A stretch of DNA of 52,014 nt, taken from Treponema sp. (GTDB lineage: Bacteria; Spirochaetota; Spirochaetia; Treponematales; Treponemataceae). Where the stretch lies: positions 1-52,014 of the forward strand of contig DUOS01000165.1 in NCBI GenBank assembly GCA_012838745.1. The letters are read 5' to 3'. The notes below the pieces were generated by a model. That model made no database searches, was not told the origin of the DNA, and saw nothing but the letters and a program-made list of their open reading frames with translations. Both the position numbers and the translations under genes were made by a program. Shown here piece by piece: positions 2,808 through 5,130 of the stretch; the stretch's first letter is position 1, and the number at the start of each line of letters is the position of its first letter.

Positions 2808-3439
2808 ACGTTTAAATCCTTTTTGAGGCCAGCAAGAAATTTTTCAACATTTGGAGCGGTTGCATAATTACCTTGGATACTCTCGAAGTCGTCGGCTGTA
2901 AGTGTTGCGAGATCTTCTTCTTCAATTCGAAGTGATTCAATAAGAGGCTCCCTATTCATCCAGTGTAATTTATTGACGTAGATGTAGTCTGCCAGCGCTT
3001 TTAGGGGGAGGGCTTGAAGTTGTGACCCATCGTTGGAATCGACTACTTCGACGCCGTTAAAAAATAGAACCTGTGGAACGCGTTTGTAGCTGAACAGGCC
3101 AACTGCAGTATCGAATTCTGCGGGGTTTTTTGATGTTGCGCAGGTGAGTGCGATGACACTTTCAGGAATCCACCCGTGAGCACTTAGAGCATATTCAAAA
3201 CTTACGTAAGACGGATAATAGAGGCGGTTTGAGAGGGCAGGGAGATTGAGTGGTTGTTTTCTCAAAACAGAACTGAGAGTATACAACCCGCGTTTTAACT
3301 GGATTACATCTCCACTTTCCATGGCTCTTTTTACTAGACCGTAGCGAATATTATCATTTGGCTCGATATTTTTAATATCAGCGACCGAAAAAACGTGATG
3401 TTCAAATGTTTCAAAAAGTGTGCGTACAAGTTTATTCAT
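2804..3439 (-). CDS. AbiEi-like antitoxin / transcriptional regulator
   Basis: A 211-residue protein starting at MNKLVRTLFETF. The N-terminal 60 residues look like the winged-helix domain of AbiEi antitoxins: a helix pair, then VKRAMESGDVIQLKRGLYTL, the hallmark 'G.i..l.rGlY' strand. The rest (YYPSYVSFEYALSAHGWIPE) matches the usual continuation of this family. AbiEi proteins are antitoxins of type IV toxin-antitoxin systems and repress their own operon by binding inverted repeats. A longer frame to 3580 exists, but its extra 47 codons run through three hairpins and are unlikely to be coding. No good ribosome-binding site precedes the ATG. The partner toxin appears truncated, so this may be an orphan regulator. 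The family call rests on motif memory. Confidence 0.75.
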   Translation of the reverse strand: MNKLVRTLFETFEHHVFSVADIKNIEPNDNIRYGLVKRAMESGDVIQLKRGLYTLSSVLRKQPLNLPALSNRLYYPSYVSFEYALSAHGWIPESVIALTCATSKNPAEFDTAVGLFSYKRVPQVLFFNGVEVVDSNDGSQLQALPLKALADYIYVNKLHWMNREPLIESLRIEEEDLATLTADDFESIQGNYATAPNVEKFLAGLKKDLNV

Positions 3440-3448
3440 ACTAGTGAG

Positions 3449-3481
3449 GATCTTGCAAAACTCAGGAAGTTTTGCAAGATC
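3449..3481. repeat. Hairpin 1: perfect 14-bp inverted repeat
   Basis: The arms GATCTTGCAAAACT (3449-3462) and AGTTTTGCAAGATC (3468-3481) are perfectly complementary around a 5-nt loop. The repeat lies 10 bp upstream of the AbiEi-like start codon on the minus strand, where an autoregulatory operator or a leader-RNA hairpin would sit. Confidence 0.9.
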
Positions 3482-3497
3482 TACCAATAATGTAGGT

Positions 3498-3546
3498 GGA
3501 GAATTTCGGTAAATCTTTGTATTCCAAAGGCTTACCGAAATTCTCC
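3498..3546. repeat. Hairpin 2: perfect 15-bp inverted repeat with inner stem
   Basis: The arms GGAGAATTTCGGTAA (3498-3512) and TTACCGAAATTCTCC (3532-3546) match perfectly. The 19-nt interior holds a second 5-bp stem, CTTTG/CAAAG, so the whole element can fold into one long hairpin. It abuts hairpin 3, sharing one base. Confidence 0.9.
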
Positions 3547-3590
3547 GAGAGGTAATTGTAAAAGTAACCGACTTTTGCAATTACCTCTCG
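3546..3590. repeat. Hairpin 3: 20-bp inverted repeat
   Basis: The arms at 3546-3565 and 3571-3590 are complementary over 20 bp with a single T-G mismatch, around the 5-nt loop AACCG. It is the longest stem in the window and lies farthest upstream of the AbiEi-like gene. No T-run follows on either strand, so it does not look like an intrinsic terminator. Confidence 0.9.
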
Positions 3591-3669
3591 TTACTGTCAT
3601 TATCTGACTGTTACTAGTATGAATGAGGTTTGGTCAAAAAGCAAGTAATTTCCACCATTTACAGGGCGG

Positions 3670-4031: not shown

Positions 4032-4165
4032 TCATTTTCCAATACCTAGTTCTGGCGGAGCCGATCCGTTGGATCATTCTGTTCTTTTTCAAAGTAGCGA
4101 TGCCATATTTAACTGCTCGTTCTGTTTCCGCCTAAATCGTATCGAAGTTTAGATTCAATTTTCAT
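4032..4165 (-). pseudogene. Remnant of a winged-helix C-terminus, frameshifted
   Basis: Directly after the RhuM/Fic gene, an ATG overlapping its TAA stop (TAATG) opens MKIESKLRYDLGG and soon stops. A shift of frame near 4131 then gives ETERAVKYGIATLKKN and RMIQRIGSARTRYWKM. The second piece resembles the terminal winged helix that closes many Fic or AlbA_2-type ATP-binding regulators (a '..L+..G.I.RIGS.R.GYW' ending). The two pieces are most simply one decayed gene end. Identification is by pattern memory only. Confidence 0.45.
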
Positions 4166-5130
4166 TACCTGGTTTCCGTTTGGTTCGTCAGAAAGTGCAT
4201 AACCAAATTGATCATTAGTTCTTTTTCTTGGGGTTTTGATTCTGCAATCATAATGGTGATTGCAACAAGGGTTGTGTCTGGAATTATTTTTACACCGTCT
4301 TTAAAAAGAAATCCTGTTTTATCAAGAAAATATAAAAAAAGAGCAGCAGCGATACGTTTGTTTCCATCATGAAAAGAATGGTTTTTTACTACAAGATATA
4401 GAACGTTTGCAGCTTTTTCCTGTACGGTGGGATAGAGATCTTTTCCTCCAAAGGTCTGATATATAGCCCCAAGGCTCCCTTGGAACGATTCATCTTTCTG
4501 TCTACCAAAAAGGTCGCTTTCACAAGTAAAGCGCATGGAGTTTATAAGTTCTATACATTCTTCATATTGCAATTGATATTTTGATATGGATCCATCGGGC
4601 TTTTCTATTTTTTGGTGGTCATAATCGTCGAGCATATCGAGAGCATATGTGTATTGTTCTATAACTGATAATATTTGTTTTGCTTCTAGAGTGTTTCCTG
4701 TTCGTTTGAGAATTTCTACAACTTTTCCTAGAGTGCTAAGTCTTTTTTCGTTGACGGCTATTCCGTTAAATATATACTCTTTTAGAACTTTATTTGCCCA
4801 TCGTCGAAATTCTATTCCATGAGTCGATTTTACACGATACCCTACCGAAAGAATAATATCCATGCTGTAGTGTTCAGTCTGATACTTTTTGCCGTCTGCG
4901 GCAGTTGTCGCAAATTTTGCGACAACTGAATTATCTGTACTGTTTGAAAGGGTGGATAGTTCCTCAGCAAGTGCGTTATTTATATGTTTTCCAATTGTTT
5001 TTACGTCTCTGTCGAAGAGAAGTGCGAGTTGGTTCCTATTTAACCAGACTGTTTCATTTTCAAGGGGTACATCGAGTGTTGTTTTGCCGTCTTGTGTGGT
5101 AAATAGTATTAGTCTGGTTTGTTGTTTCAT
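4165..5130 (-). CDS. RhuM-like protein with C-terminal Fic/Doc domain
   Basis: A 321-residue protein. Residues about 15-125 match the RhuM virulence-protein module (VWLNRNQLALLFDRDVKTI, then HYSMDIILSVGYRVKST and GIEFRRWANKVLKEYI). Residues about 215-300 form a Fic/Doc fold with the active-site loop H251-SFHDGNKR-259. The loop has Lys where AMPylating Fic enzymes usually have Gly, as in Doc, so phosphotransfer rather than AMPylation is possible. RhuM-Fic fusions are common in bacterial accessory islands; their biochemical role is not settled. The ATG overlaps the stop of the truncated helicase fragment upstream, so both are probably read from the promoter at 5369-5397. No antitoxin for the Fic domain is evident nearby. 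Confidence 0.88.
   Translation of the reverse strand: MKQQTRLILFTTQDGKTTLDVPLENETVWLNRNQLALLFDRDVKTIGKHINNALAEELSTLSNSTDNSVVAKFATTAADGKKYQTEHYSMDIILSVGYRVKSTHGIEFRRWANKVLKEYIFNGIAVNEKRLSTLGKVVEILKRTGNTLEAKQILSVIEQYTYALDMLDDYDHQKIEKPDGSISKYQLQYEECIELINSMRFTCESDLFGRQKDESFQGSLGAIYQTFGGKDLYPTVQEKAANVLYLVVKNHSFHDGNKRIAAALFLYFLDKTGFLFKDGVKIIPDTTLVAITIMIAESKPQEKELMINLVMHFLTNQTETR

Follow-up and report, generated by a model that had tools for sequence, protein, structure and literature searches.

The start codon of an orphan abiEi-like gene in a Treponema sp. genome is closely preceded by three strong hairpins of differing sequence, which raises the question of whether they serve that gene, as a compound operator or an RNA leader, or whether a palindromic repeat element has been inserted there. 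The three hairpins, which a preliminary description had placed at 3449-3590 of the window (the whole stretch of 52,014 nucleotides that was analysed), were recovered at those positions when their arms were re-found by an inverted-repeat search. In window order, the first arm pair (3449-3462/3468-3481) consists of 14 perfectly matched bp around a 5-nt loop, the second (3498-3519/3525-3546) of 22 nt matching at 91%, equivalent to 15 bp plus an inner helix, and the third (3546-3565/3571-3590) of 20 nt matching at 95%. The last of these stems gains 3 flanking bases by chance, and the element proper stops at 3587. The minimum free energy of positions 3430-3620 is -91.3 kcal/mol versus -36.6 +/- 3.8 kcal/mol for dinucleotide shuffles (z = -14.4; 0 of 200 shuffles). 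The distance of 10 bp between position 3449 and the abiEi ATG (3439-3437, minus strand) was also confirmed, as was the orphan status of the gene: its neighbor abiEii is an internally deleted remnant, and abiEi is therefore an orphan. A fourth feature, absent from the preliminary description, lies further out: ATTCATACTAGT, an inverted repeat of 12 bp without mismatches (3434-3445 and 3613-3624). A search of Rfam with the unit returned chance-like matches only, all under the gathering score, and scans of the window for promoters and terminators yielded no signal exceeding that of shuffles.

Table. Features of the abiEi locus, with positions in the window; hairpins are numbered from the 5' end of the element.
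Feature	Position	Strand	Remarks
Three-hairpin mobile element, GAGGTAATTGC...GCAAGATCCTC	3446..3587	-	142 bp; R1 positions 1-142, 144.8 bits, E 1.6e-26
Hairpin 1 (element 5' end, palindromic terminal repeat)	3546..3590	-	Element part 3549-3587
Hairpin 2 (middle)	3498..3546	-	Always paired; sequence unrelated between lineages
Hairpin 3 (element 3' end)	3449..3481	-	Similar to hairpin 1 when reverse-complemented (23/34 identical)
Target-site duplication, abiEi-side copy, ACTA	3442..3445	-	GAG-type copies as a rule have a 4-bp duplication
Target-site duplication, second copy, ACGA	3588..3591	-	One change from ACTA
Candidate AbiE operator palindrome: left arm, loop, part of right arm	3588..3624	-	Cut off by the element
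Rest of candidate operator right arm	3434..3441	-	Overlaps abiEi start codon (ATG 3439-3437)
abiEi-like antitoxin/repressor gene, 211 aa	2804..3439	-	PADLOC AbiEi E 3e-54; C105 paralogue 86% identical
abiEii remnant, 56 codons	2637..2807	-	Intact-paralogue residues 1-32 fused to about 225-251

The unit is not confined to this locus. In its own genome (2.2 Mb, 225 contigs), a second copy (C1:7736-7878, 92% over 143 bp) sits between a small upstream gene and the DNA polymerase I gene (polA), with no AbiE beside it, while a third (C22:8045-8144, 93%), which has lost one hairpin, adjoins a nitronate-monooxygenase-like gene, with no AbiE nearby; a degenerate relative on contig C101 is likewise not beside AbiE. 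About 27 near-complete copies are carried by a sister species of the same genus, G026. Across the family, the core pattern of hairpin 1, with at most one mismatch, has matches in 34 of 274 genomes, and the reversed control pattern matched none among the genomes listed. A covariance model, R1, which was built from 18 copies of the genus, found full-length matches in 43 of the 274 family genomes, distributed over 9 of 20 genera, and phylum-wide in 33 of 393 genomes, every one inside the order; the model is usable for annotating such repeats in treponeme genomes. Most copies are extragenic, 71 of 87 sites interrupting no reading frame of at least 120 residues. Dispersed copies are thus many, in the own genome and in relatives, and their lack of linkage to AbiE refutes, by the criterion set in the preliminary description, a compound operator. 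A second type of palindromic repeat, GGGCACCTC(T/G)AAAAA...TTTTTAGAGGTGCCC, was also observed in G026 (L094:4706-4744 and L171, about 1670-1705), and at L158 of the same genome a related sequence lies within the middle hairpin of the element.

The flanks of the copies reveal how they were inserted. Identical 4-bp direct repeats flank 34 of 60 copies with GAG-type ends, drawn from several families, versus 0.58 expected (binomial tail about 1e-52), and 17 of the 31 such copies outside G026; a 5-bp match was seen in 4 of the 60. For near-full copies from G026 and its genus the corresponding counts are 18 of 30 at 4 bp, versus 0.48 expected from re-paired flanks, and 0 of 30 at 5 bp. Identity at 4 bp lies far above expectation, and the element therefore transposes with a 4-bp target duplication. 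At L039 the first-hairpin loop of one copy contains a second, nested copy with GGTT on either side; this insertion, together with the pattern of flank identity, sets the boundaries at GAG...CTC, that is, at 3446-3587 in the window. The window copy's own duplication is imperfect (ACGA/ACTA, 3 of 4 positions). A preference for palindromic targets, a possibility prompted by the window site, was not supported over 58 GAG-type sites (p = 0.35). Single-hairpin forms of about 38-40 bp also occur with apparent 4-bp duplications (L041, L042 and L300), which suggests that an end palindrome may suffice for movement.

A subset of copies ends in GGGGCTGTC and shows the 4-bp duplication in 0 of 16 cases. 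Such copies (L255-L266 and L276-L279, in G053, G057 and G094) are often flanked by an A-run and a T-run, without a 4-bp duplication, and possibly have a mode of insertion different from that of the GAG-ended copies. Their inverted A/T flanks were considered as a signal and rejected, being mostly a matter of composition.

What is mainly maintained among the copies is their fold. The predicted structures of 89 extracted copies share the same layout in all cases, with exactly three terminal hairpins in 79 copies and four in the other 10. A first hairpin of 17 bp, closed by a 5-nt loop, is followed by the middle hairpin, by some 15 nt of linker (frequently ACATCTAAGG-like) and by a third hairpin of 12-15 bp, which stops 1-3 nt short of the 3' end of the element. 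Total length is about 128-145 bp, mostly near 138-143 bp. The consensus of the 18 copies from the genus likewise folds into three hairpins, 14 of its 48 pairs being supported by double compensatory changes. Compared with each other as inverted repeats, the end hairpins match imperfectly, at 23/34 positions in the window and 25/34 in the G026 consensus. The sequences of the middle stem, on the other hand, are unrelated across lineages, as in GTAGTTTCGTCTATTTTCATGC (G573), GCGATTGCTTGCGGTTGC (G556) and AAAGAAAAATCTATTTC (G004). Its pairing may reflect either selection for pairing itself or hairpin-templated repair that matches the arms. A family of miniature elements that spans an order and conserves chiefly its folded layout makes testable both the recognition of structure by a transposase and the persistence of a central hairpin whose sequence turns over.

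The three hairpins very probably represent a single copy of a mobile element, non-autonomous and conserved in structure, that has spread through the host's order and landed in the likely abiEi operator. At the level of sequence, this reading is carried by the dispersed copies, the 4-bp duplication, the nested insertion, the covariation of the stems and the element-free AbiE sites described below, and the option of an inserted palindromic repeat, one of those in the preliminary description, is accordingly borne out. The end hairpins with their GAG...CTC termini, as imperfect inverted repeats of each other, are probably the sites recognised and cut by a transposase acting in trans, possibly on extruded DNA hairpins. 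The middle hairpin, in turn, may stay paired because folding belongs to the mobile or transcribed form. A broader proposal, which we advance tentatively and consider somewhat less probable than its opposite, is that these repeats constitute an undescribed, order-wide class of elements defined by the three-hairpin fold, and not by sequence, with a middle hairpin selected for pairing alone and a mobilising enzyme that reads DNA (or RNA) structure and produces the 4-bp duplication.

By anatomy, the unit is a MITE-like element with a resemblance to REPINs, in a variant not previously described in the literature searched: no treponeme MITE or palindromic repeat of this sort was found there, subscription papers and ISfinder being outside the scope of the search. 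It shares with bacterial MITEs its short length, lack of genes, inverted-repeat ends (here the end hairpins), multiple copies dispersed in its own genome and in relatives, target duplication of a fixed 4 bp and mostly extragenic position. It is unlike them in that each terminal repeat is itself a palindrome, with a further hairpin between the two, in that the order as a whole retains the layout despite full replacement of the middle sequence, and in that its parent insertion sequence was not found.

The search for such a parent, or for a transposase, bears on the alternative that fares best, in which IS1182-family insertion sequences, with their palindromic ends, gave rise to the element as a MITE and supply the transposase that moves it. 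Palindromic ends are common to IS1182-type elements and the unit, and in one genus, g16, the GGGGCTGTC-type elements share their first 17 nt exactly with the IS1182-type end in L183, and 15 nt at their other end match L086. No ends identical to those of an IS1182 element of the same genome were found outside g16, the own genome and G026 being without PF13751 and PF05598. The element contains no transposase gene, and none was found to accompany it consistently: PF01609, PF13751 and PF05598 are all missing from the own genome, G026, G023, G042 and G119, and the latter two families also from G004, whose single contig holds many copies of the element. A gene-bearing form with GAG ends was found neither among genes of the three Pfam families nor among the partial copies of G026, which look like ordinary deletions, nor among the single hairpins of G004. 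IS1182-type genes are thus missing from most element-rich genomes, including the own genome, G026 and the near-closed G004 and G057, and their co-occurrence with the element (6 shared genomes, 5.6 expected) shows no correlation. The modes of insertion also differ: IS1272, a member of the IS1182 family, replaces stem-loops without duplication (PMC5678879), whereas GAG-type elements duplicate 4 bp and, unlike the targets of IS1272, their sites are not enriched in palindromes; the GGGGCTGTC-type copies, whose ends match IS1182-type elements, show no 4-bp duplication. An IS1182 origin is consequently rather unlikely, although the g16 ends lend it some substance. The IS1182-type insertion sequences at L086, L183, L184 and L185 bear hairpins at their ends, and several of them have inverted A/T-rich or palindromic sequence on their flanks, as though they had inserted into terminators. 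Another locus with an IS1182-type gene, L201 (G163), has GAGGCCACTGAAAAAG ends and GTTTATTC on both sides as an 8-bp direct repeat, and is possibly a GAG-ended relative of the element's parent.

A REPIN/RAYT-like nature, in which a Y1 tyrosine transposase (RAYT, or TnpA-REP) would mobilise the palindromic ends and the two inverted end hairpins would flank a spacer hairpin, is improbable. The anatomy does recall that of REPINs (PMC3116915), with its inverted pair of palindromic repeats, single-hairpin forms, compensatory changes and largely extragenic position; unlike them, the unit possesses a discrete central hairpin. Its clean 4-bp target duplication also argues against this reading, since, to our knowledge, such a duplication is not expected of Y1 transposases. 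Moreover, the two described super-families of REP sequences are tagged GTAG or CGTC (PMC3733652), whereas the element ends in GAG(G/C)...(G/C)CTC or GGGG...CCCC. Other repeat classes were compared by anatomy. ERIC/IRU, BOX, bcr1 and other small structured repeats are mobile, intergenic elements of 100-170 bp. RU elements share all of these properties, the size range included (PMC2759123). The unit has three independent hairpins, in contrast to the one long imperfect palindrome of such repeats.

The remaining evidence comes from the AbiE operons themselves. Contig C105 of the own genome carries an intact AbiEi-AbiEii operon (AbiEi 86% identical to that of the window, AbiEii Pfam E 3e-32) without the hairpin unit. 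Counting this one, the genus yielded five AbiE operons besides that of the window (C105, G019, G021, G026 and Spirochaetes bacterium bin_251), none of them with the unit, which is thus not conserved with abiEi across relatives. Instead, the abiEi start codon of these five is spanned by an inverted repeat of 35-43 bp, whose 17-19-bp arms differ between operons but match each other; such repeats, with covarying arms, are seen at L012 (332-372) and upstream of abiEi at L207, L208, L209 and L053. By analogy with S. agalactiae, in which AbiEi binds two promoter inverted repeats of 23 bp each, 3 bp apart (PMC7319586), the start-codon repeat is likely to be the true AbiE operator. When the element and one target copy are removed in silico from the window, a 45-bp palindrome is regained (18 of 20 pairs); the element thus landed in the right arm of this candidate operator, and the outer repeat ATTCATACTAGT is what remains of it. 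The interrupted palindrome is similar in position and size to the AbiE promoter inverted repeats of S. agalactiae and M. tuberculosis (Rv2827c), to which the three-hairpin unit itself is unrelated. Hence, that the hairpins form a compound operator or an RNA leader dedicated to AbiEi autoregulation is highly improbable: they do lie close (10 bp) to the start of abiEi, and promoter inverted repeats are indeed bound by repressors of the AbiEi type, yet the operator option fails, and the leader is unsupported, in the face of five AbiE operons without hairpins, copies at many AbiE-unrelated loci and a separate, better-conserved palindrome suited to the operator role.

The insertion of the mobile element, in contrast, accounts for an odd leader otherwise mistakable for a regulatory RNA, and would constitute a natural disruption of an operator at a toxin-antitoxin operon. 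Insertion into the target ACTA, part of the right arm of the candidate operator palindrome that overlaps the abiEi start codon, would have displaced the upstream operator part to 146 bp from that codon and placed three hairpins in the leader, within which the element would fall if transcription begins upstream. The most likely consequence is that abiEi autoregulation is weakened and its translation lowered: autorepression would suffer because the candidate operator is split, and translation would be hindered, if the native promoter lies upstream, because the three hairpins end beside the start codon. Loss of abiEi control would be tolerated, and may be neutral, because the adjacent toxin gene is already a remnant. 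The AbiE remnant and a type I restriction subunit are accompanied by a RhuM/Fic (PDC-S23-like) gene (window 4165-5130, minus strand), forming a small defence cluster, and within this gene lies a 12-bp perfect hairpin, CAGTTGTCGCAAATTTTGCGACAACTG, at 4902-4928.
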